Shown: in pieces, positions 8,173 through 56,133 of the stretch | How positions within the stretch are numbered: the stretch's first letter is position 1 | How the letters are laid out: every line of letters starts with the position of its first letter | Assembly: GCA_963855995.1 (NCBI GenBank) | Contig: OY979717.1 | Location: 31,682,797-31,746,796, forward strand | Direction of reading: 5' to 3' | Source: Muricea muricata | Taxonomy: Eukaryota; Cnidaria; Anthozoa; Malacalcyonacea; Plexauridae | Length of the DNA: 64,000 nucleotides | Notes under the pieces: generated by a model | Database searches by the model: none | What the model was told of the DNA's origin: nothing | The model's input: only the letters and a program-made list of their open reading frames with translations | Made by a program: the position numbers and the translations under genes

Positions 8173-8394
8173 AGTTGGTAGTTTGGCCTATTAGATTTCG
8201 GCTTCTTTTTTTCTTGCTTGGTCGGTGGGGGTTTACCTAAACAGCTTGAAAAACTCGATTTTTTGTTTTGTATAAAAATGAATACCTAAAGATGTTATTA
8301 TTCTTGTAGAAATGTTTTTTTTAACAAATTCGCAATAATTTTCGTTTATCAGCTCTGTTTAGACATGTTGTCAGAATTTTTTAATTCGTTGCCA

Positions 8395-29941: not shown

Positions 29942-30031
29942 GTGCTAGTTTTGGTTAGCGAAATACAAAAGAGTGCTCAATGACATATAGACAGAGCGAA
30001 ATGTATAATTGTGCAAAATACCTCAAAAACT

Positions 30032-30075
30032 TACCACTACAGTCTGTTTCATCCAAAGGGAATCTTCAGGTGGTA
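30032..30075 (-). ncRNA. Hammerhead ribozyme, copy 2
   Basis: Same motif as copy 1, with stem II loop CUUU. It lies 35 bp downstream of the PLE stop codon on the same strand. Confidence 0.75.
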
Positions 30076-30110
30076 GACAAATTTCGAAAATGTGCGAGCT
30101 TCTTTTATGC

Positions 30111-32553: not shown

Positions 32554-32588
32554 GCATAAAAGAAGCTCGCACATTTTCGAAATTTGTC

Positions 32589-32632
32589 TACCACCTGAAG
32601 ATTCCCTTTGGATGAAACAGACTGTAGTGGTA
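32589..32632 (+). ncRNA. Hammerhead ribozyme, copy 3
   Basis: Mirror image of copy 2, located 35 bp after the stop codon of the + strand PLE frame. Confidence 0.75.
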
Positions 32633-32653
32633 AGTTTTTGAGGTATTTTGCAC

Positions 32654-32658
<5 letters not shown>

Positions 32659-32719
<61 letters not shown>
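32659..32719. repeat. (TA)n microsatellite
   Basis: TA tract marking the junction between two PLE copies. Confidence 0.95.
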
Positions 32720-34967: not shown

Positions 34968-35540
34968 ATGACGGAACATGACATCTCACCTGGATTGGAA
35001 ATTGTGGAAAATCTTGATGCATCCGGCGCGATAGATGGTAATGAAGGTAGGCCTACTGATCTCGCTCAGGCTATCGTGGCCGGCCGTGAGTTTATTGCTA
35101 AGATTTCGTCGGCGATTTGGGCAAATATTGCCCCAAATCTCAACTTATCAAACGAAACTTGCTCAAATCCAAATGCATCTGCTGTGCTCGAGGGCCAAGC
35201 AGAATAATTAAATCCCGGAGTGCCAGTCGACCAAACGGGTATAAGTGAAAGCTCTGCAATTGTCAATCCCGTAGTATCAGTGGATCAATCGGGAGCAGAG
35301 AAGAGATCTTTGGTTTCAAATATCGATTCAGAAATGCTGGCTAAAAGACCGCGCACGTGTTTAGCTCCAGAGCCAGACGGTATGGAAAATGGGAACAATG
35401 ATAGTACAGATGACAAGTTGATATCCCCAAGTAGTAGGGAAAATGGCCGGATTGGGGGGAAACAAATCCTGCTGGGTCAGAACCTTTTGGGCGATGGCAA
35501 CCAGAGAAAATCCCGGCAAAACTTTTCCAATTTGAGTTAA
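34968..35540 (+). pseudogene. DIRS-2 Gag, N-terminal half, frameshifted
   Basis: The start codon at 34968 opens [17 protein letters not shown] and reads 79 codons to a TAA. Another frame (35220-35540) continues with VVSVDQSGAEKR and KRPRTCLAPEPD. The organisation parallels the DIRS-1 Gag N-terminal part (QAV.SAIQPNL-like segment, then a VDQ-containing linker, then a basic KR stretch). The conserved middle of Gag is absent. The sequence passes into the Polinton near 35500-35540. Confidence 0.7.
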
Positions 35541-35876
35541 AAATCATCTTTTGAGCGATGTTTTTTTTAAAAAAAAAAATTTTCCTTAAAATTTAAAAAA
35601 ATTTTTTTAAGGAATTTCCAAGATGGCGGTTTTTCAAAAAAAATCGCGAAAATTTTTTTGTCATTTTAGGATTAGATAAAAACAATGTCGGTCCAACTTA
35701 AGGTTTCTTCGTCTAGTCTTAAAGACATGGAAAGCGTCTTAAATTTGTTATCTCTTTTAACACCGTACGAAAAACATTTATTCGTCTTTACAAAATAAGG
35801 TTTGTTATCCATTGTCTTGATTGGAATCATTTCCATCCCAGAGACGTTCAAAGGCTTTTTAGCTTTTAAAGCTTAA
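35541..35876. other. Polinton left end, AT-rich, no intact gene
   Basis: Begins with A/T homopolymer runs forming an imperfect palindrome (35567-35620). May represent what is left of the terminal inverted repeat. No matching copy was found at the right end. Confidence 0.4.
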
Positions 35877-36179
35877 TTAAAAAATATTGTTAAAGAATGT
35901 GAAGGTCATTTGGGTTCTCCATTGACTAAAAAATTATTTTACGGTGACGATGAGAATACTATTTACACTAAATTAAAACCTTCTGTGAAATTTTATGAGG
36001 TTGGCGGTGAGGTCGGCGTTTCGGAGTACGAGGACAAATGTTGCGACGTGAAAGCCGTGTTGGAGGTTACCGGGATTTTGTTCAACGGGGATAAAATAGG
36101 TTTACAAGTGAAAGTGTACGAGGCGCTCGTGAAAGAGAGTGTCCGGGAGCATGTTAGGCTAGTCGATATGGCTTGGTAA
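35877..36179 (+). pseudogene. Unknown Polinton protein, start lost
   Basis: An open frame of 100 codons without ATG. It reads NIVKECEGHLGSPLTKKLFY, KFYEVGGEVGVSEYEDK, and ends VREHVRLVDMAW. Mixed beta-type character with conserved-looking glycines; no domain recognised. It is probably the C-terminal part of a gene whose 5' end is degraded. A hairpin at 36248-36273 follows it. Confidence 0.45.
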
Positions 36180-36316: not shown

Positions 36317-39300
36317 ATGCCAAATAAAAGGAAAGGGTTTTTTACCTATAACGGTAGATTACAATCTATAACAAATATTCTGAAAGAACCCGGCGTATCC
36401 GAGTTTTTACAACGGAATGGGCCTATGAAAAACGGGCCGCAACGGGCCAAACTTCGGCGGTTATTAAAAGTGGGTGGTATTACAAAGGATGTTGTAGACA
36501 CTTATTTGCAAGACTCTATCCGGAACAATCGTGACCCATATATTATTTTACCCCGGCAACGGGGTTCGGTCCGTGTGAACGGTGAACAAATGACCGCACG
36601 GCAAGCGTTGACTCGGTTCCCGCTCCTTGGTGGTTATTTACAACGGAAAAGACCACTGAATGAAAGGGCATTACATGCAAAAGTGTTACGCGAGTTTCGT
36701 GCGAACAAAATCCCCGGGCATATTACGCACGAGCAACCGCCACACTTTAATTTGTACGGGAATCATTTCGAAGGTGCTCGTGTTCGTTATAAACTTAACG
36801 ATCAGCGTATAAAACATCGTAATTTGGAATCGTTATTTGAGTTCATAAGACCACAGGTTATCGAGTTAATTCGTGCGAACCGGAATACGAAAGTTGGACT
36901 TAGCGTTAACCCTTGGATGATACGGCGGTCGGGGAATGGTTTTATTCGTCAATTAAAAGGTTTACACTCTGGAACGGTGTTCGAAAATTTCGAAGATACG
37001 AATCCCGAAGCCATAGTTGACGCGATGTTAGAGGTGATTCGGGAACAATTCCATAGGGTTGAGAGTATGGAAGGTTCGGGGTGGATGTTAGAATCGTTCG
37101 ATCACGTTATGTTAGCGTTTTCTAAAATTCCAGCCATTGTCGGTTCAAGTTATAAACCGTTACCAATGGAATTGGGACTTCGTCGTGAGAATGGGATCGA
37201 TAATATCGATAATAGCAGGGACGGTAATGATTGCTACTGTTCAAAATATTCAGTAGCCCGCGCAGAATTCCCACCAGCAAAAAACCAAAGCAGAAAGAAA
37301 GTGTTGTTACGAAGAAGTTACGTGAGCAAGCGGGCAAGTTTGACTGGACAGGTATAAGTTTCCCGACACCGCTTCACGAATGGGATATTTTTGAAAATTT
37401 AAACAAAAGATCGGTGCAAATTTTAGGTTGGGATGATGATGAAAAACAAGTAATATATCTCCGGCATCCTAATACGAGGTACGAAAAAGTTATCCGGTTA
37501 TTTTACTACGACGGGCATTATAGCACGATTAGGAATATGTCCGCACTAATGCGACACAATATGCACGATCATGCAAGTTTTTACTGCCCGTATTGCACGT
37601 ACCACCATCGGACCGCAGACGGAGTATCTCGGCATAAAAAAGATTGTAAAGCAGAGAAACGTACCGTCGAAAAAATGCCAAAAGTAGGTTCGGTTGTTAA
37701 ATTTGAGAATGTTAAGGACGTAGTAGTTAAAGCTTTTGTCATTTACGCTGATTTTGAATGCCGGCTTGAAAAAGTGAATATTCAAAAAGGGGATAAAACG
37801 ACGCAAACGCAAATTCATAAAAGTTCCGGGTATTGTTTACAATTCGTATCGCGTGTAGACCCCTCTGAAAGTCGTACCATTCAATACACGGCAAAAACGG
37901 ATAATGAAAATGTTGCCGTACATTTTATACGGACGGTGACGGGTTTGGTTTACGATCTAGGTCAAAAGTATGCTGAAGATCGACCGATGATCATGACCGA
38001 GGAAGATCAAGACAGTTTTAATAACGCAACACGGCGCTGGGTTTGTCAAAAGGATTTCGTTGACAACGATAAGGTAAGAGATCATTGTCATTTTAGGGGT
38101 AAATTTCGAGGGGCGGCACACGGTAAATGCAATTTGGCTTTGAAAAAAGATAAAACGGTCCCTGTTGGTTTTCACAACGGTGCAAAATATGATTTCCATC
38201 TACTTGTTCGTGAATTAGGCCGTGTTAACGGTTATATCAGAATGATTGCACGGAATTCGGAACAATATATTTCTGTAGAAAAAGCCGCGAGAATTAGCGA
38301 AACAACCGTGGTGGATAAAAACGGGAAACCAAAATTAGATGCTGCGACTGGTAAACCAGCTACTAAGAAAGATACGTGGTATATTCGGCTTGTAGACACG
38401 TTAGGTTTTTTACAAGCGAGTTTAGCCAATTGTGTAAAAACGTTTCCACGATCTGAATTTAAATTATTAAAGCATGAATTTGGCGATGAACATTTTGGCG
38501 TGTTAATTCGTAAAGGTGTTTTCCCCTACGATTGGTTCACGTCGATCAAAAATTTAGATGTAGATCCAAAACATTTGGTCAAAGATGATTTCTATTCGGC
38601 ATTAAACGACGAACATATTTCCGATGAAGATTATGCACATTTTTTAGATGTTTGCGGTAAATTTAATTTAAAAACTATGCGCGATTACCACGACTTCTAT
38701 TGTAAAGTGGATACGGTACAGCTTGCGGATATTATGGAATACCAACGGGATCGTTTAATGGGAACGCACGGGCTTAATATTTTACATTCGTACACGCTGC
38801 CGGGATTTTCGTGGAAAGCCGCATTAAAATATACGGGGCAAGTATTAGAATTAATTTCCGACCGCGATATGTACGATTTCATCCAGGAAGGGAAACGTGG
38901 CGGCATTTCTACAATTCCAAATCGGTATGCCAAAGCGAATAATCCATACATGGGATTAATCCGTGACAAATTCCCGATTGAAATTATGCAAGAGTTAGGG
39001 AAACCATTTTCGGTAGGGGCGGTTTGTGAATATTTTTCAGATTTTACATCCGATGAAGTGGAAGATTTAGAAAAAAAAATAACCGACGGTGAAATTTTTA
39101 ATCCAGACCAAGTTACCAAATATTTAATTTACTTGGATGCGAATAACTTATACGGATGGGCCATGTCGCAACCGTTACCGACGGGCGGGTTTACATGGAT
39201 GACGGACCAGGAATTATGTCTTCCGATCGAAGAATTTTCACCGTGTTTTGTGAAAGTCGATCTGGAATACCCGGAAAACTTGCATGATTATTTTTCAGAA

Positions 39301-40476
39301 TTTGTTCCTGCACCCGATAATATTATTCCCGAAGGCTCAAAAGTAAGAAAATTAGCACCTAACTTATTACCGAAGAAAAATTACGTGTGTCATATTCGTA
39401 ATTTACTTTTGTACAAAACTTTAGGCGTTCAAGTAACACGCGTCCATCAAGCATTAAAATTTAACGAATCATTATGGTTAAAACCGTATATCGATCTTAA
39501 TACGAGATTACGTGCCGCTGCTACGAACAACGCGGATAAAGATATGTACAAATTATTAAACAACGCTGTTTTTGGAAAAACATGTGAAAATTTACTCGGT
39601 CGTACCGAATATCAACTTGTCGAGTCTCGTAAACAAGCTTTAAAATATATTTCTAAACCAACGTTTAAAGATTATACCGTTTATAACGAAACGCTTGCCG
39701 GTATACACTTGGACCCGTCTAAAGTCGTATTAAACAAACCGAGTTACGTTGGGATAGCCGTTTTAGACTTATCAAAAATCCACATGTATGATTATTTCTA
39801 TAACAACGTTAAAGCCAAGTACGGTGACCGTGCACGATTACAGATGACCGATACGGATTCGTTTCTTTTGGAAATCCAAACCGAAGATTGGTACGACGAT
39901 ATTCGCGATGAAGTTTTAACGTTATACGATACGAGCGCGTACCCGGAAAATCATCCTGCCGGTTTACCACGCGTGAATGAGAAAGTAATTGGATTATGGA
40001 AAGACGAATACAAAGGTCGAGCTGTTAGCGAGTATGCCGGTACGTGTTCTAAATCGTACGCGGTGGCGTTAAGCGATTACCCGGGTAGGTGCGATAAAGA
40101 GTTTTGCGATGGGAAATGTAGGGTAAAAACATGTGTTGGGAATGGTGGAAAAAAATGCAAAGGTGCTAAAAAAGCCGTTGTTAAAAAAGGGATTACGCTC
40201 GAAGATTATAAGGATTGTGTGTTTAATTTACAGTCCAAAAGTTTGGCACAGTTACGTTTTAGAACACACGACCATGAAATGTTTACAGAAAAAATTAGTA
40301 AGATCGCGTTAAGTCCAAAAGATGACAAACGCGTTATTTTATCCGATGGGATTCATACGATACCGATTGGTCATTGGCGTGCGGGCCATGAGAGTTTGGA
40401 ATATGTGAAATTAAATCTAGAAAGATTAGTACAAAAAGGGTCGTTGATGAATTTAGCGTTAAAAGCTATTGTATAA
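36317..40476 (+). pseudogene. polB: Protein-primed DNA polymerase B (one frame break)
   Basis: Replicates the element. The first frame (36317-37357) gives an N-terminal region of about 330 residues, ending in the typical LINI-like segment before a cysteine. After a shift near 37295 the second frame runs to 40476. Residues in the second frame: zinc finger CPYC...H...C (119-139), exonuclease motif I YADFE (172-176), an HNH/EndoVII-like DHCHFRGKFRGAAHGKCNL segment (284-302), Exo II HNGAKYDFHL (315-324) and Exo III YCKVDTVQLAD (490-500). Polymerase motif A is YLDANNLYGWAM (634-645), motif B KLLNNAVFG (774-782) and motif C MTDTDS (872-877). The catalytic residues are all intact. The single break may be an assembly error. 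Confidence 0.95.
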
Positions 40477-40941: not shown

Positions 40942-41325
40942 ATGTCTTATGACGAAATAAAAAACAGGACTGTGTATATGTTGTGTCGTACCGACGGTGG
41001 GGATGATGTTTATATAGGTAGTACGTCTTTCCCTTTAGGAAAACGGTTCGCTGAGCATAAACAAAATGCTGGAAACCCTTCAAGGTTAAAATACCATGGT
41101 GGTTCTAAATTATACAAGAGAATGCGCGAAGTTGGTGTTCACCGTTGGAAGATTGTACCGTTGTTAACGTTTGCATGCAATCGGGACACAATTTTTGAGT
41201 TCGAGCGGGAATGGGTAAAAGCGGTCGGTGCAAATCTTAATACGTCTTTACCGATTAGTGAAGATGTAACTAGAAGGGACTGTCAAAGACGGTACGATGA
41301 AAAAAATAAAGAAAAAAGGCGGTAG
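40942..41325 (+). CDS. Free-standing GIY-YIG endonuclease
   Basis: 127 codons. Classic GIY-YIG opening VYMLCRTDGGDDVYIGST, followed by a LGKRFAEHKQN helix (conserved Arg), KLYKRMREVG and a WKIVPLL strand. It ends with a short basic tail (RRYDEKNKEKRR). Such single-domain nucleases occur in viruses and homing elements and cut DNA. In this element it may process replication intermediates or act as a selfish gene. It is unrelated in detail to the GIY-YIG domains of the neighbouring PLEs. Start context ATAAATATG. Intact. Confidence 0.88.
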   Translation: MSYDEIKNRTVYMLCRTDGGDDVYIGSTSFPLGKRFAEHKQNAGNPSRLKYHGGSKLYKRMREVGVHRWKIVPLLTFACNRDTIFEFEREWVKAVGANLNTSLPISEDVTRRDCQRRYDEKNKEKRR

Positions 41326-41477: not shown

Positions 41478-41960
41478 ATGGAAAATGCTAACCATAGGAA
41501 AGATTTATTCCAAAAAGTTTTTAGAGAATTTGAGCGTAATTGTTTAAAGGTTGACATCGGGAGAGACTATAGAGAATCTATAAATTTTCAAGAAGCCGTC
41601 TTATTCTACATATTTAACTTATGCGAATTAAACCCAACAAATAGGCTTGGAAAAATTATCAATGAATTTTTAAAATTATCTTTTTTTGAAGGACCCGACC
41701 AACGCCGTGGGATATACAAACCCATTAAGTATATATTACTCCCCGTCCTCTGGCGCGATCATAAAGCGGTCGAACGTAAAAAGCAAAAAAAATTATCGTT
41801 TCTTGCTAACGAATTAAGTAACGCAGGACAACACGTCCAAGGACATATCGTGCGTACGATTGTGGAACCATACATTCGAGATTTGAACCGAAAATGGGCT
41901 AAAATGACAGCTTTAGATAAATTAAAAACGGTACCACCAACATCAGCGTGGAAATTCTAA
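41478..41960 (+). CDS. Unknown Polinton protein
   Basis: 160 codons, intact. Helical and charged: KDLFQKVFREFERNCLKVD, EAVLFYIFNLCELNPTNRLG, then a basic segment (LWRDHKAVERKKQKKLSFLA) and PYIRDLNRKWAKM. No domain recognised, no membrane segment. It is convergent with the next minus-strand gene. Their stops face each other across a 12-bp hairpin that contains this gene's stop codon. Confidence 0.75.
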   Translation: MENANHRKDLFQKVFREFERNCLKVDIGRDYRESINFQEAVLFYIFNLCELNPTNRLGKIINEFLKLSFFEGPDQRRGIYKPIKYILLPVLWRDHKAVERKKQKKLSFLANELSNAGQHVQGHIVRTIVEPYIRDLNRKWAKMTALDKLKTVPPTSAWKF

Positions 41961-43392: not shown

Positions 43393-43418
43393 TTTCATAA
43401 CCTGTACAGGTTATGAAA
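43393..43418. terminator. Perfect 26-bp palindrome between convergent genes
   Basis: TTTCATAACCTG TA CAGGTTATGAAA. The right arm contains the stop codon of the minus-strand gene (43411-43413). Confidence 0.5.
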
Positions 43419-44924
43419 TTACAAAACAAATTTCGTGACTAAAAACCCTATTCCAATATTCCGTACTACCTAAAAGGTATGGAAGATGAGCATTGGGTTG
43501 TGTTGTTACAGTTGGTGGTTTTACCGTTGTTGTCGGTTTTACCGTTGGTGGTATAGGTGGTTTTTTCGTTACCTTAGGTGCTACGTAATTCACTTTTGTA
43601 TTCACGCCAAATTTCATGGCGTTCGTAGCGATGGTTAAAACGTTGTTGTACCCTTCGACTTTATTTTTTAAAATAATCATGTTGGATGGGATTAAAATAA
43701 TACCTGGCGTGATAGCCATGTTTAATACGACGTTTGTGTCTTGAATGGCTTTTCGCATGTCCGAAATGGCTTTTGACGGGTTATCTTGTGCGATCGTATC
43801 TTGAACAAGCCGATGAAATATTTGCTGCGTTTGTAACGATTTTGCACCTTGCCCGACAATAGGCCATCGCGTTTGTGCTTGTGCTCCTAAGACGCTATAC
43901 ACGTACGATTCAATAGCCGATTGTACTAAAATTTGTCCGGTTTTTGTAAGACCGTCGCTATCGTCTTTAATGAATTTCATCCAATCGGTATCGCTATCGT
44001 CGTTAATGAATTTCATCCAATCGGTATCGCTATCGTCTTTAATGAATTTCATCCAATCGGTATCGCTATCGTTAACGACTTTTGAAACTTCTTCGTAGTC
44101 GATACCAAGCACACCGGTATTATTCGCCGACATCCTATACCTATAATTCCTAATGTTATTTTTATTCGCATGATGCGAATACCAATAATTTATCTCGGCA
44201 CGCGTCCGTTCAAATTTATGAGCCCATATACGTTTGTGTGGAATATTTTTTTGAATTATTTTTTTAATATCGTTTGCAATATACGACGACATTTTTTCTG
44301 GCGTTCCCGTAAACCGTTTCATATGGTAATAGAGGCAATACCGCGCAATACTTGTAACAACGTTATTATCACCTGTTAAATGTTTCCGGCTTATTCCACC
44401 CACGTAAGAAATAATGTAAGCTGCTAATAACGATGCAAAATACGGATCGTCTTTGTTCACGGCTATTTTTGTAATATCGTTTGCGTTTCCTTCCCACGAT
44501 GTAGACAACGCGTCGAAATTACTTGTAAACCCAGAATTTGCATTGACGTAAATGGTGAATTTCCTATAATTGTGTGGTAACGACGACGACGGTAAGGTAA
44601 ACAGTGCAACCGTCCCACTCGTGTCCCAGATGGTCGGTAACCAGTGTAATTCGCCCGAATATAATTTCTTAAAATCATCGGTCGTAATGTCTAAAAATTG
44701 TCCGTCGCGAACTTTAAAGTCAACACTCGTCCCGGTAACGTCGCCTGTCTTGGATAAGGTAACGATAAACTTGAACCTATCCAAACGAGCGTTCGGGTAT
44801 TGTTGGACGAATTGTTTTCCCATGCGTTTTTTGGTATTTTGAAAGTTCGTAACGCTTTGTTATAATTCGATCCGTAATATTGTCTGTACGACGTTTCGTA
44901 TTTGGTAAGATCTTCTTCCGACAT
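43411..44924 (-). pseudogene. Unknown large Polinton protein with frame switch at A AAA AAC
   Basis: The likely start is the ATG at 44924 (context TCAATAAAAATG), opening MSEEDLTKYETSYRQYYG. After about 33 codons the frame must shift by -1 to join the 470-codon frame that runs to 43411. The join coincides with the heptamer A AAA AAC at 44827-44833, in the correct phase. The long part has a beta-rich start (FKFIVTLSKTGDVTG), a helical middle and a repeat of DDSDTDWMKFIK three times (about residues 253-290). The tail is Pro/Thr-rich (PPTVKPTTTVKPPTV). No domain recognised; possibly a virion or spike-related protein. Either programmed frameshifting or a one-base deletion explains the break. Confidence 0.65.
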
Positions 44925-44926
44925 TT

Positions 44927-45994
44927 TTATTGAATATCCTTTATATCTTTTACCGGAATCCACGATGGACTATCGTACCCTAACCATTTTACTAATGCCA
45001 TTCCGTTCTTTTTCCGGATTATTTTTTCTATCCTGTACGTATCGTCTTTTTTGTTGATTAGGGACAATTCTTGTTCGTAAAATTTACCGATAATTGGCTC
45101 TCCTTCGTGGTCTTCTATTTCGTAAACGGTGGGATCTCCTCGAAGGACTTTAGACACTTTAAAAATTTCTTCGGTGAAATTGGCTTCGTACCCTTTGGCA
45201 AAAATACTTTTGTATTTGCTCACTCTAACCGTATCTCCGACCTTGAAGTTAGGCGGTTGTAAACCATCCAAAACATGCCCGTATAACGTAACCCATACCT
45301 TATTTTCATTTGTTTTGTCCACGTCATTTGGTTTCATATGAATACTACTGTGTTTGGTATTGTTATAATTTTTGGTAAGATCGTCTAAAACACCGATCCA
45401 ATTACGTGCACCTTTACTGTAAAAATATTTTTCCATCTTTGTTTTCAATGTCCGATTAAACCTTTCGACGATAGCCGCTTTCTTCTCGGATTGTGTAGAA
45501 AAGTAATGAACGTTATGGCTTTCCAGTAATTCTCTAACACCCACGTTATAAAATTCTTTTCCTTCGTCAAACTGGACCACGTTAGGGTATTTTCCAAATC
45601 TTGTTTTAAAGGTACCTAATAGTTGGTCGACGGCTTTCGTCATATTTTTTGTATCTTTCCTGTAGACGGGGACTGTAAAAGCATACCGACTAAGAATTTC
45701 TATAGATGTTAATATGCAACGGTACCCTTTGTTTTTACTGGCGTATTGTCCCATATCGACAAGGTCCATTTGTATTTGATCGGCAAGACCTTTGACAAAT
45801 GTTTTCATGAATTTATGTTTCCGAATGATAGGTTTGAACCTCGTATAGGTATCTTGTGTTTCCAACCATTCTTTAACAAGTCGTCTACTCACTTTAACCC
45901 CATCCGCTTTAGCTTTTTGGTATAATCTCTCAGCAGATTGATAACCTTTAGAAGGATCGTAGTAAATATCCCTTAATTCCTGTTCGTTGATCAT
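44927..45994 (-). CDS. DDE integrase with C-terminal chromodomain
   Basis: 355 codons, intact. The N-terminal helical region (1-70) has no clear HHCC zinc finger. The catalytic core has D77 (IQMDLVDM), D143 (VVQFDEGKEFYN) and E177 (AAIVERFNRTLK), the D,D(33-35)E arrangement. An SH3-like segment with FKVGDTVRVSKYKSIFAKGY follows. The chromodomain at about 321-355 reads YRIEKII..., ALVKWLGYDSPSWIPV. It inserts the element into the genome; the chromodomain may target histone marks. It lies four bases downstream of the penton-like gene on the same strand. Start context GAATAAAAAATG. Confidence 0.96.
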   Translation of the reverse strand: MINEQELRDIYYDPSKGYQSAERLYQKAKADGVKVSRRLVKEWLETQDTYTRFKPIIRKHKFMKTFVKGLADQIQMDLVDMGQYASKNKGYRCILTSIEILSRYAFTVPVYRKDTKNMTKAVDQLLGTFKTRFGKYPNVVQFDEGKEFYNVGVRELLESHNVHYFSTQSEKKAAIVERFNRTLKTKMEKYFYSKGARNWIGVLDDLTKNYNNTKHSSIHMKPNDVDKTNENKVWVTLYGHVLDGLQPPNFKVGDTVRVSKYKSIFAKGYEANFTEEIFKVSKVLRGDPTVYEIEDHEGEPIIGKFYEQELSLINKKDDTYRIEKIIRKKNGMALVKWLGYDSPSWIPVKDIKDIQ

Positions 45995-45997
45995 TTT

Positions 45998-46669
45998 TTA
46001 TTCGATATATAATTCGAACATGACCGTTAACCCAACACTGTATCCGATATTCGTGTTGACGTCGAATTTGAACTTACTGTGGTCACCGTTTAGGACCGAC
46101 ACCGACGTGTGAATATTATCGTACGGTGTAACGGATTCGTTTAAACTTTGTTCGGTCGTAACGGGAATACGTGCAAAAACTCGGCTCTGGTTACCGTTTG
46201 TATCGAAATTCCGGTCGATATACACACAATTACACCCAAGCGTTACGTACCGTAACCCGCGATTAATATCAACGACAAACGGTGACTTCGATTTGGTATT
46301 AATTGGGATAATTGTATTTTCTGGGAACCCAAGCAACGGACCAAAACGATATAAGTTTAACTTTTTTGGTGATTGGATAGCACAACGGTTATCGTGTTTG
46401 TGCCGTTCTAGCGTAATACCGGATTCGGCTAAACGGTCGGCAATCATATTAAACGTCCAGTACCCTTCTTCAAACGCAACACCCGTGGCAGGATGGTCGG
46501 GAACCGTTATAAATTTTATAAGATCGTTGTCGTTGGTTACAATGTTCTTATACTTCCATAACACGCTAATATTTTTCACGTGTATTTTTTCCCCGTACTT
46601 TGTCGTTATACACTTTTGAAGAAAAACGTCGGTTGTGCCCGTATCGAGCGATAACATAAGTTTATCCAT
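45998..46669 (-). CDS. Probable penton-like minor capsid protein
   Basis: 223 codons, intact, rich in predicted beta strands. Contains LYRFGPLLGFPENTIIPIN and GLRYVTLGCNCVYIDR, and ends GYSVGLTVMFELYIE. Size and beta-rich character, a LLGF motif, and its place beside the integrase fit the single jelly-roll minor capsid (penton) of Polintons. This is a judgement from overall pattern, not from catalytic or diagnostic residues. It is divergent from 46686, with only 16 bp between start codons. Confidence 0.5.
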   Translation of the reverse strand: MDKLMLSLDTGTTDVFLQKCITTKYGEKIHVKNISVLWKYKNIVTNDNDLIKFITVPDHPATGVAFEEGYWTFNMIADRLAESGITLERHKHDNRCAIQSPKKLNLYRFGPLLGFPENTIIPINTKSKSPFVVDINRGLRYVTLGCNCVYIDRNFDTNGNQSRVFARIPVTTEQSLNESVTPYDNIHTSVSVLNGDHSKFKFDVNTNIGYSVGLTVMFELYIE

Positions 46670-46686: not shown

Positions 46687-47905
46687 TGGACGAGATTGAA
46701 TTAGATAACCTCGGTGAAGACCCTATACCGGAAGAAGAAGGGGAAGAAGAAACAGATATGGAATGGCGTGACGAAAGTGTGGTCATCATGAGCGGGATGA
46801 ACCCAGACTTACGTCAAGGTTTAGAAGAAGAAAAACAATTAAGCCGATCGTGAATTAGGGAAAATTCAAGGCGTTAGGAACCGTGGATACACGGAAGATA
46901 AAAAAAACCTTAAAGAATTAGGTATTTCCCTGAACAAAGGAGACGGTCCATTTGCAAAAAGTATTTTTGAAAAACTAAAAGTAACCGTGAACAGGAAAGG
47001 GAAGGTCAACGGTGCAGAATTTGATAACGTTCGGATTATTGTTCAAAAAGGGAAAACACTCGTGTACACGGAAGATACGAAGAAATTAGCCAAAGTGACC
47101 GAATTTAAAGAACTCGTAAACAAAGCCGAATTGGAACATAAAAAACACCGGCAGCGTTAATTGAAGAAACGTTACCGGACATACCCGTTACTACGGACCT
47201 CGAACATGCGGTTGTACGAAACAGCACTGAAGATTTAGTACATTTTATCGATGAGAAAGTTGCGGAAATAGAAGCCAAAGCTAAAAAGTCAGCGACGATC
47301 AGCGAGCAAACAATACGCGAATTCGGTGGGATTATAAGAATACCCAACCCCGAACTTAATTTAGATAACGGTTGATAAAAGAACAAGAAAATAAATTTCG
47401 TCAACTTGCTAGAGATGAACCAAAACTCTTAGAGAAAAGTTTATACGAGGCAATGGCTGATACGTGCGTACTCAAAGCCGACGAAATTCGGTTACGACGA
47501 AGCGAACGACCAGAAAGTGTAGAAGTCCAATCCATGGTCGAAGAAGAAGCCCAACAAAACGATCTAACGCGTTTTGAACGGTTTAAACAATGGGCTAAAA
47601 GAAACCTTGGAGGCATTTCCGTCGTTGCCATCTCGGTTGCAGGTATTATAACCACTATCGTTATGAGTGCACGGACCGTCATCAAAAAAGGGGCACGAGC
47701 CACAAGTAAATTTGCAAAGGCATTAGCTAAAGTCGGTGAAAAAAGTAGCACCGATCATCGCTGGTCTTTTAAATTTAGCCGCTAAACTTTTGACGTTAAG
47801 TGCAGATGCCGTTGGTTTCCTTGCAAAAAATTTATGGTTGCTTGCTGTCGCTATTGCGTATATTTTGTATAAAAAAATACAAGAAAAAAAGTTATTAAAT
47901 AAATG
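46686..47905 (+). pseudogene. Large Polinton coiled-coil/membrane protein, several frame breaks
   Basis: Consecutive open segments in changing frames cover the region without gaps. First is an acidic start (MDEIELDNLGEDPIPEEEGE). Then comes FAKSIFEKLKVTVNRKGKV, a long helical part, and EQTIREFGGIIRIPNPEL. After that follow a KFRQLARDEPKLLEKS helix and an Ala/Val-rich multi-membrane end (GGISVVAISVAGIITTIVMS; KNLWLLAVAIAYILYKK). Breaks are near 46853, 47145, 47365 and 47745. Those at 47145 and 47745 are at runs of six A. Similar proteins are common in cnidarian Polintons. A structural or scaffold role is possible, not proven. Confidence 0.7.
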
Positions 47906-49181
47906 AATATGAATCGTTCTGAACAATTAAGTGCAGGTTATAAGGAAACAACTGTACTTTCAAAAGAACTACGTGGACTAAGGTGTTTCAATGACCCATC
48001 AGCCCCGGAGAAAACCGTAGCAAATCATAGCGAGACTTATCGTGTGCGTGTTCCACCTTTGAACCCTGACGAATGTATTATCCCTGATACGTTCGCATTA
48101 TCGTTTAATTTTGAAAACAGTAACACAAAGTCATGGTTCCTGAACAATTTAGGCCGATTGCTCATCGCCGACTTGGAGGTTAGAGTCCAAGGAAAAGCCG
48201 TCTACAAGAACTCGGGTGAAAGTGTAATAGAAGTTTACAAAGATTTGTGGCGATCCAACGTCGACCGCGAAAACCGTCAAGAATATGGGATTGCCAACGA
48301 AAATCTTCGAAAACTTATTTCAAAAGACGACAGTGCAGACAAAGCAGCAAAAACCGACGGTGTTCTAGACGTAACCATTGCCAACGTGTGCGATCGGATG
48401 AAAATACCGTTAGGCAAAGTCCTCTGTGATAACGGCTCGTTCGCCCCGTACGGTATGTGCGAATTTGTCTACAACATCACGTTACCGCCACCGGGGAAGA
48501 TCATGAAAGCACAGGCGAACGAACAAATAGGGAATTACAAACTTACCGACCTACGACTAGAATACGAAGTGATTCAAAGTGCAGGACTTGCCGAAAGCGT
48601 TAGAGGAACGTACAATGCCGGAAGGTCATTCCCGTACAACTACATCACATGTTTGCAAACACCAACGTGGCCAAAAGGCAACATCCGCGAAAGTATATTA
48701 ACATTACTATTACATTACTATTAACTTTCCATTGAAAAGCCTGAAAGCTATTATACTCTTATTCACGGAGAACGGTGCAGGAGACAGCGAACATTTCCCA
48801 TTCCCAAATTTAACACACGTCGACGTGACCGTGGAAGGGACAAGAAACGGCTACCGCCAACGTGGGCTCGCGAAACGTGATGTGTACACCGAAGCCGTTC
48901 GATTCTTCAACGATGATAATTGTAAAAAATACTTAGGGTCAAACACCATATCAAAACGGGACTACTACACCGACAAGTTTGCATGCGTTATAGATTTTAG
49001 GACCGTGGATGATAACACCGTAAGCGGTAGCGGTCGAAAACTTGTTAAAACGCAAGCAGGAGTACTCTTGGAAATAGCAAAAGAAGCCACAACATCAGAC
49101 TTAACCTGCCACGTCTTCGTTGTTGCCGACGGTGCAATCGATATTATTGGGACACAACTTAATGGAGACCCTAAATACTAA
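47903..49181 (+). pseudogene. Probable major capsid protein, split into two frames
   Basis: The first frame (47903-48724, 273 codons) starts in the context TAAATAAATG and reads GLRCFNDPSAPEKTVANHSE, SWFLNNLGRLLIADLEVRVQ, and KTDGVLDVTIANVCDRMKIP. The second (to 49181, 149 codons) reads FPFPNLTHVDVTVEGTRNGY, then FACVIDFRTVDDN and VFVVADGAIDIIGTQL. Together about 420 residues of strand-rich protein directly before the packaging ATPase, the usual place of the double jelly-roll capsid gene. The break falls in an 11-bp tandem duplication (ACATTACTATT, 48701-48722). Deleting one copy alone does not reconcile the frames. Assignment by family impression and position. Confidence 0.6.
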
Positions 49182-49183: not shown

Positions 49184-49765
49184 ATGCATATGATTATTGT
49201 CGGTATGACCGCGTGTGGAAAAACACATTACCTTTTGGAAATGCTTGAAAAAGAATACAAGAACCATTTCGACCATATTTTCATCGTATGCCCAACTTTA
49301 GAAGATAACAAAACCTACCAACAATGGAAGTATTTAGCTGACCCAGACGTTTACGCGTTACCCGTTCCACATGATAACGTAGAAACTACCCTTCGTGAAA
49401 TTACACATTTTGCAAAAAATACCAACAGTCTCGTCATCCTCGACGATTGTGCATCGAGTAAAGACGTTAAAAACAGAACGAGCGAACTCGTAAAATTAGG
49501 GTTTTCCGGTCGACATATTGGGTTAAGTACAATCGTCGTCACGCAACAACTCACGTCTATTGCAAAACCGTACAGAATGAATATTTCAAAACTCGTCACG
49601 TTTTACAACGCGTGCAAAGACGATATGAAATATATTTTCAACAATTATCTCAATATCGAAAAAGACGAAGAAAAAAGAATTATAGACACGTTAAAAAATA
49701 ACGACTACGCACGATTAGAAATTTTAACGACAAGACCATACACACATCAAGTTATCATTCCATAA
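49184..49765 (+). CDS. Packaging ATPase (A32/FtsK-HerA type)
   Basis: 193 codons, intact. Walker A GMTACGKT (residues 7-14), Walker B NSLVILDDC (81-89), and the sensor region TIVVTQQ (116-122). A following HIGLSTIVVTQQLTSIAKPY block is typical of Polinton/NCLDV DNA-packaging ATPases that pump DNA into the capsid. It starts two bases after the capsid gene stop in the context TAAATATG. Length is at the short end for the family. A hairpin follows. Confidence 0.95.
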   Translation: MHMIIVGMTACGKTHYLLEMLEKEYKNHFDHIFIVCPTLEDNKTYQQWKYLADPDVYALPVPHDNVETTLREITHFAKNTNSLVILDDCASSKDVKNRTSELVKLGFSGRHIGLSTIVVTQQLTSIAKPYRMNISKLVTFYNACKDDMKYIFNNYLNIEKDEEKRIIDTLKNNDYARLEILTTRPYTHQVIIP

Positions 49766-49793
49766 TTTCAAAACCTTTTAAAGGTTTTGAAAT
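49765..49793. terminator. Hairpin after ATPase gene, 13-bp arms
   Basis: ATTTCAAAACCTT / AAGGTTTTGAAAT with loop TTA. Confidence 0.45.
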
Positions 49794-50207: not shown

Positions 50208-50576
50208 TTATCGGCAACGTGGGGCACCGACTGTAATCCCACCAGATACTAACCCGACCAAAGGAACGTACGGTGTTAAATAACCAATCATCCTTTTCAC
50301 ATCGCGTTTAAACAATTCGTTCTTACCGAGATCGTCTTCTAACGAGACGTTATCTTTCACGAGATCTAACTTCACCATAAGTTCAGAGAATTTCGTTATA
50401 AGCACGTCCGTTACTTTTTCGTTCACTTCGTCTAATTCCTTACTTTGATAATCTTCGTAAATTTTTTTTAACGTTTCTTCCGTAGCGTTTTCGATATATT
50501 TCGCAGTATGTTTAATTTTTTTTTCGGCAACTAACCGTAATAATTCTTCCCGGTAAATCGTTTGCTCATCTTCCAT
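50208..50576 (-). CDS. Unknown Polinton protein, helical with hydrophobic tail
   Basis: 122 codons. Starts in the context GATAAATG, six bases downstream of the fibre gene stop. Helical and charged over residues 1-90 (EELLRLVAEKKIKHTAKYIE; ITKFSELMVKLDLVKD). The tail, ending MIGYLTPYVPLVGLVSGGIT, could insert into a membrane. Conserved small proteins of this look accompany Polinton fibres in my recollection. Function unknown. Confidence 0.7.
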   Translation of the reverse strand: MEDEQTIYREELLRLVAEKKIKHTAKYIENATEETLKKIYEDYQSKELDEVNEKVTDVLITKFSELMVKLDLVKDNVSLEDDLGKNELFKRDVKRMIGYLTPYVPLVGLVSGGITVGAPRCR

Positions 50577-50580: not shown

Positions 50581-52188
50581 CTATAACTTCAATAATCGTT
50601 TAAAACTGAAAAACGTTTCGTCCGTAAAGTCCATCGTATGGTTATTGTCAGGTTGGAATACGAAATAGATAGAATTACCAAGAACGTGGTCGGTACTTCG
50701 TGACACTAAATCTTGCATAACAAATTCGTACGTTTTTCCATTTTCATAATCTAACGAAAGTGAAATTTCTTGCCCGTAAATACGCGTACCCTGGTTTAAA
50801 AACGATCCTTGGATACGTACTCTTTTACCAGTACTCCTGTGGAATAATCCACCCTGTACGTCGTTATGGGCAATCTTATTCTCATAACTCCAACTCCAAT
50901 ACTTATATTTCGTTGACGCATTGTACCCAGAACCGCCACAATCACCCCACAACATTACATCATATCCCCTAGAAGTCGTTAAGACAACATCCATCTCGTA
51001 CGTGTAAACACCGTTTGGAAGTTTGGGTTGAACGGAAAAATTTATTTGGTAACTGCTACCTACTTTTGAAAAGTCTAACGTTTCCGTAGCACGTCCGTTT
51101 TCAGGCGAGTCGACCATATTGTCTTGCCGAAGAATTGTAACGTTACCGGGTTTCCCTTTAAACGTTAAAATATTCGTATAATCTGAATAATACTTTTCTA
51201 CAAAACCTTTCGTAATCGGTTCGCCCGATGTTAAAGGAATAATAGGTAACCCGGTAATACGGTGACCGTTCATATCAATATCGGTACCTTTTTTAATGTA
51301 CACCGTGTCGGTATAACTTTTGGATACGGCAGCCGTATTGCCGGATGGGGTCGGGTTCAAACCTAGTATTTCGTGATTGTTCATACCTATGTTGTCTTGC
51401 ATCGTAAACCCACTGTCGGTCAAGTATACTCGGTTCGCGTATTGTTTTGTAATAGGGTCGTTTGCTAATGTTGGGTCGGGGAGGTTTGTAATTTTGTTAT
51501 TGTTCATATTAATGTCCCCTTGCATTGTAAAACCCGTATCGGATAATCCACCGGAGCCAGCGGGACCGCGTGGGCCACGTGGTCCCTGTGCTCCAGGACT
51601 ACCGCGTGGCTCCTGTGCCCCATCACTACCAGGTAAACCACGTGGCCCTTGTGCCCCAGGACTACCACGTGGCCCCTGCGCTCCATCACTACCGCGTGGC
51701 CCCTGTGCCCCATCACTACCGGGACTACCTTGTAACCCACGTGGCCCTTGTGATCCGGGACTTCCTTGTAAACCACGTGGACCTTGTGCCCCGGGGCTAC
51801 CTTGTAAACGACGTGGACCTTGTACTCCAGGACTTCCAGGTAAACCACGTGGCCCTTGTGCTCCGGGACTTCCAGGTAAACCACGTGGACCTTGTGCCCC
51901 GGGACTTCCACGTAAACCACGAGGTCCTTGTGGGCCTGGACTTCCTTGTGCCCCATCACGACCTGGACTTCCTTGTGGTCCTTGTGGGCCTGGACTACCA
52001 CGGTCGCCTTTCGGACCTTTCGAAGAACCACCACCACCGCCACTAGAATAATGTGTATCCGCATAACTTTTCGTAACGGGTTCCGAACCCGTAACCGGCT
52101 CAGGAAGGTCTATAATCCTATTCCCTTGCATATCGATGTCTTCTTGTATTGTGCTTAAACCGCTTGGATAACCGAATAATAACGACAT
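50581..52188 (-). CDS. Collagen-like fibre protein with phage-tail-fibre-type repeats
   Basis: About 535 residues from the ATG at 52188, chosen for its AAATAAAATG context; an upstream in-frame ATG at 52230 would add 14 residues. Numbering from 52188: residues 13-47 are a phage-fibre-like unit ([15 protein letters not shown]... [10 protein letters not shown]). Then comes a Gly-X-Y collagen region of about 150 residues rich in GSPG and GPRG. Three more fibre units follow ([39 protein letters not shown]), each ending in a T/S-K-x-[YF] segment. The C-terminal globular domain of about 190 residues is aromatic and beta-rich ([12 protein letters not shown]). Probably a trimeric virion spike for attachment. 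No signal peptide. Confidence 0.85.
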
Positions 52189-52211
52189 TTTATTTATAAT
52201 CCATAAAAAAT

Positions 52212-52424
52212 ATGGGTTGTGCCACTTCAAAAAACGTAAATAAAGCTAACAAGGACGCATGCGAACGAAGAAAAATCTTATTTGGGTGACACATGTCAAA
52301 AAACCCCGACGGAATAGAAACAAATTTTCAATTTGCCATCGAAAGAAAAGCAAAAAAAACTTACGAAGTTCCAAACGTTAAAGAAGAAAAAGACATAGTT
52401 GTCATTAAAGAAGAAAATTCCTAA
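52212..52424 (+). pseudogene. Small N-myristoylation-type protein, one nonsense codon
   Basis: The ATG at 52212 opens [20 protein letters not shown]. MGCxxS is a textbook N-myristoylation plus palmitoylation signal. An in-frame TGA at 52287-52289 interrupts it. The same frame continues with NPDGIETNFQFAIERKAKKT and ends VVIKEENS, for 70 codons in all. A membrane-anchored cytoplasmic protein is implied; partners unknown. It lies divergent from the fibre gene and convergent with the rpb1-like gene. Confidence 0.55.
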
Positions 52425-52446
52425 CGTGTATGTGCGTTAGGAATTT
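52415..52446. terminator. Hairpin between convergent genes, 12-bp arms
   Basis: AAATTCCTAACG / CGTTAGGAATTT with loop TGTATGTG. Includes the stop codon of the + strand gene. Confidence 0.45.
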
Positions 52447-52452
52447 AGCTTC

Positions 52453-53190
52453 CTAAACCTTGCTTGCGCTTAAACCGTTTGTGTTATCAGTTTCTTCGTT
52501 AACGGCTGCCGTAAGAAAATGGTCAAACGTTTCTTCGAAAGACGCTTTCGCAAAAACGCCTATGTCCTCTTTTTTTGTACTGTACCTATTTACGGAAAAA
52601 ATATCCCCCGTAAATACCATTTTATCAACTAAAATGGTTAAATGTGTTGGGTGTACCCCTGGCGTTCCGGCTACTAATTCTTGAACAAGATACTCGCGTG
52701 CCGCTTCTATACCTAACACGTTATAAATGTCCCATACATGAGAAGAACATGCTTGTGGATCCATCGACAACATGGAATTGGCTTTGGTGTGTTTCTATAA
52801 CCATGCCTTCTATGACGCGAGAAATACCCGCCACACCTTGAATTAACGTCAATATACCCGTATGTTTTGGTACGTATAAAAATTTCATTTCGGGATCTAT
52901 TTCGCAACACGATACTTTTTGTACAAAATCATAATGCGTTATCTCGTGTTCGAGTAACATTTGACGGTCCAATTCAATTCGTGGAACTTCTTCGCCTACG
53001 TCTAAACCGATGCCGTACATGGTGTGGAATACATCCCGCCAAGCGAAATTTCCCATTGGTATGACCCTAATTGTTTTAGCAAGACATTTTAACGTAACAG
53101 CTTGTAAACCTTTTGTGTCTATACCTGGGTTTAAACGGTAAAAAATCCGCCAGACTTCTCCTCGACCAAATTTGTTCAGCCGGGCAAGAG
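52453..53190 (-). pseudogene. RNA polymerase largest subunit (Rpb1 domain 5)-like protein, truncated and frameshifted
   Basis: Two overlapping frames (to 52721, then 52773 to 52453) together match the C-terminal catalytic-core domain of Rpb1. In order: VPRIELDRQMLLEHEIT (cleft, Rpb1 RxELDR...LT pattern), LTLIQGVAGISRVIEGMVIE (the GI.GI.RV segment) and VVDGS. After the shift near 52760 come DIYNVLGIEAAREYLVQE (the invariant GIEAAR), HLTILVDKMVFTG (HL.LL.D.MT..G), FAKASFEETFDHFLTAA (SFEET...AA) and NGLSASK. The protein stops right there, with no CTD heptads. It is far more divergent than any animal Pol II copy, pointing to a viral-type gene. The N-terminal part is missing at the DIRS-2 junction. 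The bridge helix and active-site aspartates would be further upstream and are not in the window. Confidence 0.82.
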
Positions 53191-53390
53191 CAACCAGAGG
53201 CAGAGGCCCGTTCACAAGATTTCAAAACCCACTGCACGTTTTCACAATCCACAAACATTCAGATTCAACCAACAATAAAGCATTCCAGACCAAGCAATTT
53301 GCCGCAAGGTATGTTTATAAATTTTCTTCATCATTGAAACAATCAGACAGGCTTTCCTCTAACAGGACGCCTAAAGTATTTTACTTCAAC
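53190..53390 (+). pseudogene. DIRS-2 Gag C-terminal remnant
   Basis: Frames read RGRGPFTRFQNP and RFHNPQTFRFNQ, an Arg/Gln-rich tail as in DIRS Gag proteins. It precedes the RT start by a short interval. The exact point where the Polinton ends is uncertain by 20-30 bases. Confidence 0.55.
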
Positions 53391-54977
53391 ATGGGAAAAA
53401 TTACTCAGGACCCCTGGGTTTTACAAGTGGTACAAGGATATCAAATCGAGTTTATGAAGCCTCCTGTTCAGCTAGTTCCAGCCAGGATGCCATCACTGAC
53501 TCCAACTTTGGAAACAGCGTTGGATCAGGGGGTGCAAGAGTTATTAAACAAGGAGGCAGTTCGCCTGGTAAAACAACTAGTTGTGACAGAGGGCTTCATA
53601 AGTTCGCTGTCTGTAGGGCCAAAAAAGGACGGAGGGAATCGCCCTGTAGTGAATCTGAAGCCATTAAATCAATACATAACATACGAACATTTCAAAATAG
53701 AAGGTATTCATAGTTTAAGAGACCTTCTAAAACTGGGGGACTGGTTAGGAAAAATATGACCTCAAGGATGCCTATTTAACAGAACCCATCTGGATAAATC
53801 ATCAGAAATACCTTCGTTTTCTGTGGAAAGACAGCATGCTCGAGTTTGCTTGTCTCCCCTTCGGTTTAGCTTCTGCCCCGAGAGTGTTCACGAAGCTGAT
53901 GAAACCAGTTGTAGCTCTATTGAGACAGCAGGTCATTCGCCTGATAATTTTTTTAGAGGACATATTAATTATGGCAGAATCCTCATACCTAGTGTTTCAT
54001 CAGGCAGCTTCAGCATTGAATCTCCTCGAGAGTTTAGGTTTCATAGTAAACTACGAGAAATCCCATTTAGTGCCAACTCAGGAGATAAAACTTCTGGGTT
54101 TGTTAGTAAATTCAAAAAACCTTACACTTATTTTACCGGGTGAAAAACTAAGAAAAATTCGGAAACGTTGCAAACAATTGCTAGAAATCTCGGACCTGTC
54201 GATACGAGAGTTATCAAAGTTCCTAGAGCTTTTGACCTCCTCTATTCAAGCCATATTCCCAGCCCCCCTCCACTTCAGGAACCTTCAGTGGTAAAAAATC
54301 TAGCCATGACTGCACATCAATCATACGAGGCCATGATTTCTTTAGACAAGGCGGCCAGAGAGGAGGCTATTTGGTGGAGGGATCACCTTCAGGCATGGAT
54401 AACAAAGCACTTTTCCAAAAACCTGTCGATCTCCTCATAGAGACAGACGCCTCTAAAAAAGGTTGGGGGGCATGTTGCCAAGGTATAAGTACAGGGGGCC
54501 ATGGTGCTTACAAGAAACGCGTCTACACATCAACTGTTTGGAACTGCTGGCCGGGTCATTCGCGATCCAGACATTTACAAAAGACAAAGTTTGCGCTCAT
54601 GTCAAACTGCTGATGGACAAGACAGCAGCAGTAGCTTACATAAACAAGATGGGAGGAACTCACTCGCAGGTTCTTTCAAATCTAGCAGTACAACTATGGG
54701 AGTGGCGCCTCCAAAACAACTTGAAAAGATCTGCTCAACATTTACCAGGATATTTAAATGTCAGAGCCGACCAGGAATCCAGAATGTTACTGGATTCCAG
54801 CGATTGGAAACTAGACCCATTGATGTTTCAATCACTTCAGGAGAAATGGGGGCTCTTGGAGATAGATCTCTTTGCATCCCGGCTGACACACCAGCTCCCA
54901 AAGTTTGTCAGTTAGAGACCAGATCCCTTAGAACTGGAGAGACATTCAGGGGTATGCCTTTCCCCCCTTTGCTCTAA
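53391..54977 (+). pseudogene. DIRS-2 reverse transcriptase / RNase H, several frame breaks
   Basis: Begins ITQDPWVLQVVQGYQIEF, matching DIRS-1. Then GPKKDGGNRPVVNLKPLN, LPFGLASAPRVFTKLM, and IFLEDILIMAES, where DIRS-1 has YLDDFLIMAES, so a catalytic Asp is replaced by Glu. RNase H shows LIETDASKKGWGACCQGIST, NCLELLAGSFAIQTFT and KLLMDKTAAVAYINKMGGTH. Frame changes occur near 53757, 54295 and 54460. Inactive. Confidence 0.88.
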
Positions 54978-54990
54978 TAGGGCGCTGTCT

Positions 54991-56129
54991 ATGGCAGGTA
55001 AGGACACAGAATGTGGAACTGCTAGTTCTGGTGGCCCCAGTGTGGCCAGCACAGACTTGGTACCCACTATTACTACATCTGTGCACAGATCTTCCTCTGT
55101 TATTCCCAACATCACCCAAACTGGTGATGAAAGACAATCGGTCTCACCCTCTGGCCAACCTACAACTGGCAGGATGGAAACTATCCGCCAACGTTATGAA
55201 ACAGCAGATATTTCGGAAGCAACTCGAAAGCTTCTGCTGGCAGCTTGGAGAAAGAGCACTACCTGCACTTACGCCTCCGCGTGGAGTAAATGGGTTGACT
55301 GGTGTGATCGACGGCAAGTCAATCCCCTTTCAGCTCCTTCAAGTTTAATTTTAGAGTTTCTAAAGGATCAGCTCTGGGAAGGAAAGGCGTATCGCAGCCT
55401 TAACGTTTACAGGTCTGCTTTATCGGCATTATTATGGTCGGATCCCATCCGCTGGTTTCACAATTGTTAAAAGGAGTCTTCAATTTAAAGCCAGCCAAAC
55501 CTAGATACTCACACACGTGGAGCGTTGGTAAGGAGTTAGATTTTATAAAATCCCTTGGCCTAACAAAAATTTTGACATTAAAGTTTTGTCTTACAAATTA
55601 GTGGTTCTCTTGGGTCTTACGGCTCTAGACCGGTCTTCAGACCTGGCTGAGAGGGATTTAAGGTTTCGTAGGCGTATCTTTTTGTTTACCGGGTTTAACT
55701 AAGACTTCTTAACCAGGAGATTCTCCAAAAATTAGTTTTCATGCCGCTTTCCCGTTGGACAAGAATTTATGTCCCGTGGAATGTCTACGGTCTTATGAAG
55801 AGCGAACTATTGATTTTCGACCTAAGAATGACAGTCTCCCTAATCCGTTGTTTTTGTCATTTATTCGTCCTCATAATTCTGTTTGTTCCTCATCCTTGGC
55901 TAGGTGGATTAAAAGTTTTTTATCCTTGTCGGGTATTGACACGACTATTTTTTCTGCACATTCGTTACGAGGGGCAGCTACATCTACCGCATTAATTCAA
56001 GGAGTTTTGGTTTCAGAGATATTGTCTATGGCAGATTGGTCTCAGAAAAGTACCTTTCGTAAGTTTTATTACAAACCGCGGTTTAATTCAGCACCTGGTA
56101 ACGCGGTACTATCTAGTAGCTCAATATGA
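54991..56129 (+). pseudogene. DIRS-2 tyrosine recombinase, broken
   Basis: N-terminal core-binding part SEATRKLLLAAWRKSTTCTY and YASAWSKWVDWCDRR (to 55470), then frame breaks. The C-terminal part is at 55755-56129: SYEERTIDFRPKND, HSLRGAATST (HxxR) and MADWSQKSTFRKFYY (Tyr region). The middle, with the first catalytic Arg (GLTALDRSSDLA-like, about 55610-55650), lies in yet another frame. Confidence 0.88.
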
Positions 56130-56133
56130 TGGG

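Follow-up and report, generated by a model that had tools for sequence, protein, structure and literature searches.

The window considered here is a stretch of 64,000 nucleotides from the cnidarian Muricea muricata (assembly GCA_963855995.1, contig OY979717.1, positions 31,682,797 to 31,746,796 of the forward strand). On its minus strand it contains a broken gene for the C-terminal part of the largest subunit of RNA polymerase (Rpb1 domain 5, here called A''), which lies beside the genes of a decayed Polinton. An earlier note, made from the letters alone, had proposed that a Polinton lineage carries a transcription gene at this locus; that gene, its copies in the same genome and its counterpart A', the N-terminal part of the largest subunit, are the focus of this report.

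The A'' gene of the window and the element around it

The gene occupies two frames. Its C-terminal part (52453..52773, minus strand) matches PF04998 with an E-value of 3.9e-8, a score above the gathering level, and is similar to yeast RPC1, yeast RPB1 and archaeal A'' chains in PDB (best value 7.2e-12); the NCBIfam A'' model TIGR02389 matches it at 3.4e-14, yet with 53 bits against a cut-off of 421. The middle part, in the other frame and cut on the right (52766..53149, minus strand), has no RNA polymerase family match of its own in Pfam, NCBIfam and related family searches. It is identified by tblastn of an open copy of the gene from another locus, L003 (83% identity), and by the homologous proteins P0017-P0019, in which a single open reading frame (ORF) spans both window frames; the first of them begins with the trigger-loop block TLNTFH. 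An open A'' copy as query finds positions 52441-52773 and 52766-53146 in the correct order. These profile, PDB and tblastn matches bear out the Rpb1 C-terminal core which the earlier note had recognised in two minus-strand frames, while its proposed check of both frames against PF04998 succeeded for the downstream frame and gave nothing for the upstream one.

The frame changes near 52.77 kb, the final residues fall outside it near 52.45 kb and the 5' part is missing; these defects make the window copy a pseudogene. DNA similarity to the other copies ends at 53146-53149 and retroelement-like sequence lies beyond, so that the right limit of the gene falls about 40 bases left of 53190. The gene had been described as cut on the right, and so it is, at about 53,150 and not at 53190, by a truncated retroelement (53150..56130, plus strand) with reverse transcriptase and tyrosine-recombinase-like ORFs. 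A similar element is present at 17500-25368 (minus strand) of the window, and we take the retroelement at the cut to be DIRS-like.

A'' adjoins a collagen-like fibre gene (50581..52230, minus strand; PF01391 6.3e-24), its neighbour also in L010, L014 and L016, followed by a gene of 122 amino acids (aa) and no assigned function (50208..50576, minus strand; conserved in L010 and L014). Two features which mark a Polinton are an A32-type packaging ATPase (49184..49765, plus strand; PF04665 9.7e-16) and a retrovirus-type integrase (44927..45994, minus strand; PF00665 3.4e-8). Between them lie two ORFs of a probable major capsid protein (47903..49181, plus strand), homologous to ORFs in L014, L018, L022 and L025, and a 223-aa gene (45998..46669, minus strand; conserved in L014 at 93%), which is without matches in Pfam or PHROGs and which we take, judging by gene order, to be penton-like. 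A sequence search of PDB gave no match for the capsid protein. A structure model of the L022 homologue, of low confidence (pLDDT 48.8; the tool cautions against such models), gave 43 matches in BFVD at E <= 0.001, many of them named capsid, with a best named match of 8.1e-7 (virophage) and TM scores of at most 0.31.

Further to the left are a 470-aa gene (43411..44823, minus strand; conserved in L014, with weak similarity of 28-29% in L018, L022 and L025), a 160-aa gene called o160 (41478..41960, plus strand; 63-65% in L012 and L021), relatives of which, at other loci, either separate A' from A'' or adjoin them, and a gene with a GIY-YIG nuclease domain (41008..41262, plus strand; PF01541 1.1e-4). 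The putative PolB ORF (37231..40476, plus strand) is 39% identical to a 1241-aa ORF in L025, whose endonuclease VII-like part scores 3.6e-4. From its motifs we assume the window ORF to be a protein-primed-type PolB with an HNH/endonuclease VII-like insert; it has no PolB match in Pfam or in phages, and its L025 homologue has none in PDB or PHROGs. At the left end, a DUF2738 gene is broken by an inversion into two halves on opposite strands (35675..36176; PF10927 6.2e-5, just under the cut-off, and 0.035). DUF2738, presumably a virus-family gene, is also found at an element end in L024 (2823-3320, minus strand; PF10927 4.9e-7). A candidate terminal repeat (35430..35699) matches the A''-side end of L009 at 92%, in inverted sense relative to the genes; the right terminus of the window element is lost, and the candidate is known from the left end alone. 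This gene set and the candidate repeat support a decayed Polinton of, by estimate, roughly 18-19 kb, with A'' as the terminal gene on the right. Elsewhere in the window, a near-perfect inverted repeat of 1.2 kb flanks reverse-transcriptase/GIY-YIG-like ORFs at 29985-32679, presumably a Penelope-like element.

Copies of A'' and the split of the largest subunit

When A'' was searched by tblastn over the animal's own 453-Mb assembly (74 contigs, the window being on contig C2), 11 places were found: the window itself, a further nine with 70-95% identity, and the gene for host RNA polymerase II (Pol II) with 35%. The genome thus holds ten element copies. The flanks of all nine non-window loci were examined, parts of some elements lying outside them. 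Polinton genes occur near A'' in nine of the ten loci: PolB, ATPase, capsid, integrase or fibre genes were present in the examined flanks of eight of the nine other loci, and the ninth, L019/L020, has smaller element genes in common with them and a weak PolB match only. The proposal of a Polinton lineage with a transcription gene is supported in part, by an RNA polymerase gene which recurs beside Polinton genes within one genome.

Open A'' frames of 362-398 aa, each with TLNTFH, are preserved in four of the nine other loci (L003, L005, L006 and L008), that of L005 lacking an N-terminal start. The remaining three consist of the A'' part only and cover PF04998 from position 66-73 to 263-264, so that the trigger loop through to the C-terminal clamp is contained in one standalone protein; the best PDB match of L006 is the archaeal A'' chain 4qiw_C, colinear over residues 39-369 of 391. 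The gene is of virus type and is not the remnant of a full Rpb1; the idea of a fragment cut from a full-length gene gives way to a subunit which, in the open copies, stands alone. Beside the A'' of L019 stands a 437-aa ORF (8216-9526, plus strand) with a GS...DID motif, which we take to be nucleotidyltransferase-like and a possible poly(A) polymerase; Pfam and NCBIfam did not confirm this.

Six of the nine examined loci contain A'. It is nearly complete in L017, L021 and L020, whereas the copies in L012, L024 and L026 are broken. All five of its Pfam domains, Rpb1 domains 1-4 included, are present in the three nearly complete copies, and the active-site motif NADFDGD is kept in all six. The upstream part with NADFDGD for which the earlier note had suggested a search thus exists in the same genome, usually as a separate gene, and was not found in the window element, where tblastn with A' and Rpb2 as queries gave no matches. 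In the frame of L020 (293-2671, minus strand), A' runs into the end of the adjoining o160 gene.

The loci fall into three kinds. Kind 1 carries a fibre gene and only A'' (the window, L009/10, L013/14 and L015/16). Kind 2 has A' and A'' in the same direction, together with ATPase, capsid and PolB genes (L017/18, L021/22 and L025/26), in elements of about 14-15 kb, judged from shared ends. Kind 3 comprises the rest: in L011/12 and L019/20/28, A' and A'' occupy opposite strands, and in L023/24 both lie on the same one; Rpb2 occurs in two of these three. A TFIIS-like ribbon (5.9e-13) was noticed in L012. A', A'' and Rpb2 occur together in L019/L020/L028 and L023/L024, but in broken frames.

The four A' copies that reach PF04998 stop at its position 58-73, which is where A'' starts, and in four loci A' is clearly a gene separate from A''. 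It is conceivable that a single gene underlies both, either with an intron inside it, as a passage of PMC5413956 has it for the RPB1 of Marseilleviridae, or with a break caused by decay. A' and A'' are indeed adjacent ORFs in the same direction in L017/L018, and they are joined in one frame in L024. On the other hand, A'' lies on the plus and A' on the minus strand in both L011/L012 and L019/L020, two genes (GIY-YIG and o160) separate them in L021, and three of the six A' frames (L017, L021 and L012) finish in similar tails. A single interrupted gene is, on this evidence, very unlikely.

Relatives of A' and the origin of the genes

A search with A' through 5.8 billion proteins gave P0020-P0025 as the nearest matches (61-89% identity), followed by standalone A' proteins with a length of about 915 aa (34-42%). 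The latter are represented here by P0026-P0139 and L272, together called group X, 114 being listed of 5632 matches to the query; the search took in proteins up to about 1405 aa, so that a fused Rpb1 lies beyond its reach and fused relatives of group X may exist. Since P0017 and P0020, and likewise P0002 and P0024, share the same longest-contig figure, these two pairs suggest A'' and A' on one contig elsewhere. The group X proteins P0033, P0097 and P0103 have the additional Pfam domains PF05203/PF05204, which we take to be intein parts.

The one group X protein met in IMG/VR is the A' of L272 (1411-4179, minus strand), which ends at PF04998 position 66 and stands on a 54-kb contig beside Bro-N/T5orf172, PLOD-type glycosyltransferase and collar-domain genes; A'' was not found in the 9.4 kb examined of that contig. 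The contig probably belongs to a large DNA virus, and group X as a whole probably consists of proteins of large DNA viruses. When A'', the ATPase and A' were each used alone to scan IMG/VR, no relative was confirmed for any of them. The best 80 matches to A' in a scan of GTDB genomes are archaea by title, at 26-31%, group X proteins being absent from these 80; group X is itself about 30-34% identical to those archaea.

A tree of A' was computed from 40 rows under the C20 model, without rows for Pol I or III; the host Pol II row is a patchwork of exons, the group X rows were chosen as the best matches of Polinton A', and the IMG/VR rows are without taxonomy, several on long branches and one (L203) out of frame. 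The Polinton A' rows form one clade (100/100), and together with group X they form another (100/100, stem 0.87). A branch with support 73/90 separates group X from all other rows, and in another tree the Polinton rows lay inside it; transfer in either direction is therefore possible. Host Pol II groups with IMG/VR rows taken for giant viruses (85/89), whose identity in the rows used is 22-30%; in six of eleven such rows examined, A' lies within one ORF of more than 1400 aa, and in most of them A'' matches follow downstream.

A processed or duplicated fragment of the host Pol II gene (or of Pol I or III), taken up by the element, could account for the Pol II chains among the best PDB matches. 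The host Rpb1 is, however, a different gene, present on contig C3 in exon-like pieces which are about 34-47% identical to the element A' and A''; the genes at issue are located in viral loci; and A' groups with non-host proteins at 100/100, in a tree whose missing Pol I and III rows could alter detail. We consider this origin very unlikely, and a host Pol II pseudogene in particular was rejected, given the distinct host gene and the placement of A' with group X. The argument of the earlier note against such a pseudogene is thus supported, host Pol II standing elsewhere in the tree of A'.

Direct acquisition of a split archaeal polymerase would explain why the split is at about the archaeal A'/A'' position. 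Against this stand the 14 named archaea, which form their own clade (100/100) away from the element A', and the archaeal NCBIfam equivalog cut-offs, which are missed by far (A' at 389 and 418 of 1043 bits, A'' at 135 and 139 of 421 bits), and we consider such a direct origin highly improbable. Group X was likewise considered as archaeal, and this was rejected, named archaea being more distant (26-31%) and in a separate clade.

Selection, transcription and known systems

The polymerase genes evolve under constraint. For A', dN/dS is 0.10-0.14 (six pairs, one row being a fragment), and for A'' it is 0.13-0.27 in nine of ten pairs and 0.43 in the remaining one; for the capsid, values are 0.10-0.13 within kind 2 (three pairs) and 0.28, 0.37 and one saturated between kinds. 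A' and A'' are under purifying selection and thus remained functional through much of their spread. In comparisons of fibre-bearing loci with the rest, A'' dS is 0.65-1.09 (six pairs), well under the capsid dS between kinds (1.95, 2.56 and one saturated; three pairs), so that A'' seems to have moved between lineages after the capsids parted.

The genes themselves, their split in four loci, their neighbourhood, purifying selection and the grouping with a virus-type A' clade are observed, and they lead us to regard as probable a Polinton or Polinton-like virus lineage with its own virus-type RNA polymerase, the largest subunit of which is mostly split, the window Polinton having only A''. In such a polymerase, A' would supply the clamp and the active centre, and A'' the trigger loop, jaw and C-terminal clamp; judged from sequence, the proteins would assemble into an enzyme that transcribes the element's own genes, with transcripts perhaps ending at hairpins at the gene ends. 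Elements with A'' only may receive the partner proteins in trans, or their A'' may be a passenger of recombination.

Several observations weigh against an element-owned polymerase. Rpb2 was found in two of the nine examined loci (L023 and L020/L028), in broken frames; no smaller RNA polymerase subunit was identified in the examined loci; and no copy has every gene intact. In L024 (1-520, minus strand), A' continues in frame into A'' without an A' end, an A'' start or a linker, which reflects either a fusion by decay or an older fused state, and L026 has lost the junction region. Since A'' served to find all the loci, Polintons without it are outside the count. The four fibre-bearing loci showed A'' only, and the integrase of the window or of L010, used as tblastn query, had no match in the examined pieces of the six A'-bearing loci, some element parts lying outside these pieces. 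As the retroviral-type integrase was not found in them, the A'-bearing loci may be Polinton-like rather than Polintons proper.

The last two points feed into a different account, by which the polymerase genes belong to a distinct, integrase-free lineage of Polinton-like viruses, and the lone A'' of integrase-bearing Polintons is an inactive passenger acquired by terminal recombination. A' was seen only where no integrase was, A'' is a terminal gene and terminal segments are common to different kinds, the low A'' dS relative to that of the capsid points to exchange after the capsids had parted, and the sole pair within the fibre-bearing loci, with its dN/dS of 0.43, rather fits an inactive gene. 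The six comparisons of fibre-bearing loci with the others speak for constraint instead (dN/dS 0.19-0.27), and so, weakly, since the loci were found through A'', does the same A'' neighbour in all four fibre-bearing loci. We regard this passenger origin as a serious contender that falls somewhat short of an even chance.

Transcripts of mimi- and marseilleviruses are known to end at hairpins. The words 'hairpin rule' appear in a section heading of PMC5413956. In the present elements, hairpins with perfect arms of length at least 10 and loops of 3-12 occur at 14 of 48 gene ends, against 98 of 4000 windows placed at random in element DNA and 22 of 4000 in the flanks (Fisher 1.5e-11, or 1.6e-9 with shared hairpins counted once). 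The A'' gene of the window, which is outside the 48 gene ends, also finishes at a perfect hairpin of 11 bp (52416..52445); other gene-end hairpins of the window, at 49765-49793 and 43393-43418, are perfect palindromes. If loops are limited to 3-8, hairpins also turn up ahead of the first ATG in 10 of 48 cases, compared with 99 of 3000 windows drawn at random from the elements and 5 of 3000 drawn from coding sequence. As they occur upstream of starts as well as at 3' ends, they mark the gaps between genes and not only 3' ends, which, like the absence of enrichment of the Mimivirus-like promoter AAAATTGA (2 of 48 upstream stretches of element genes), tempers the argument from transcript ends. 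The motif AAAAATYG, picked post hoc, precedes 8 of 48 genes, against a shuffle mean of 2.2. The gene-end hairpins would be consistent with a transcription system owned by the elements.

More tentatively, and in our estimation rather unlikely, the elements could form a community that shares a virus-type, mostly split polymerase, in which those with A', A'', Rpb2 and TFIIS would carry out their own transcription in the cytoplasm, making messages that end in hairpins, and the A''-only ones would exploit that polymerase. If true, such elements would hold an intermediate position, with small genomes, between Polintons and giant viruses, as the nuclear-escape idea would predict; that idea is discussed in PMC10328495, where the authors' own trees speak against it.

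For a virus-type polymerase in a Polinton or Polinton-like lineage, the significance lies in the fact that possession of an RNA polymerase sets giant viruses apart from Polintons, which are believed to rely on the nucleus of the host. Large polymerase pieces in some copies are unexpected for Polintons, as is a split A'/A'' outside archaea that is shared with the standalone A' proteins of group X. Elements of about 14-19 kb with capsid-like and RNA polymerase genes offer a direct test of the origin of giant-virus transcription and of gene flow between Polintons and giant viruses. The term-matched passages of PMC11071296, PMC10328495, PMC12220804, PMC11071308, PMC6211774, PMC10132985, PMC5413956 and PMC6401483 describe no RNA polymerase genes in Polintons.

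Among known systems, Polintons/Mavericks (Polintoviricetes), adintoviruses and Polinton-like viruses resemble the window element in integrase, A32 ATPase, capsid-like, PolB-like and fibre genes and in the candidate terminal repeat, and the window element differs from them by its RNA polymerase gene. Nucleocytoviricota share with the present elements virus-encoded A', A'', Rpb2 and TFIIS as well as a DUF2738 gene; in six of the eleven examined IMG/VR rows taken as such, the long single ORF described above holds A', whereas here the subunit is mostly split and the elements measure, by estimate, about 14-19 kb. Group X has the end position of A' (PF04998 66 in L272) and the joint clade in common with the element A', from which its 114 listed members differ by an identity of 34-42% and, in L272, by a contig of 54 kb on which Bro-N and PLOD-type glycosyltransferase genes are present. 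Archaeal Rpo1N/Rpo1C (A'/A'') agree approximately with the element proteins in split site and subunit lengths, and stand in a separate clade. According to PMC6211774, the yeast cytoplasmic linear plasmid is likewise a small linear element with its own RNA polymerase of multisubunit type, an enzyme that looks like beta fused to part of beta', whereas A', A'' and B are mostly separate in the elements described here.
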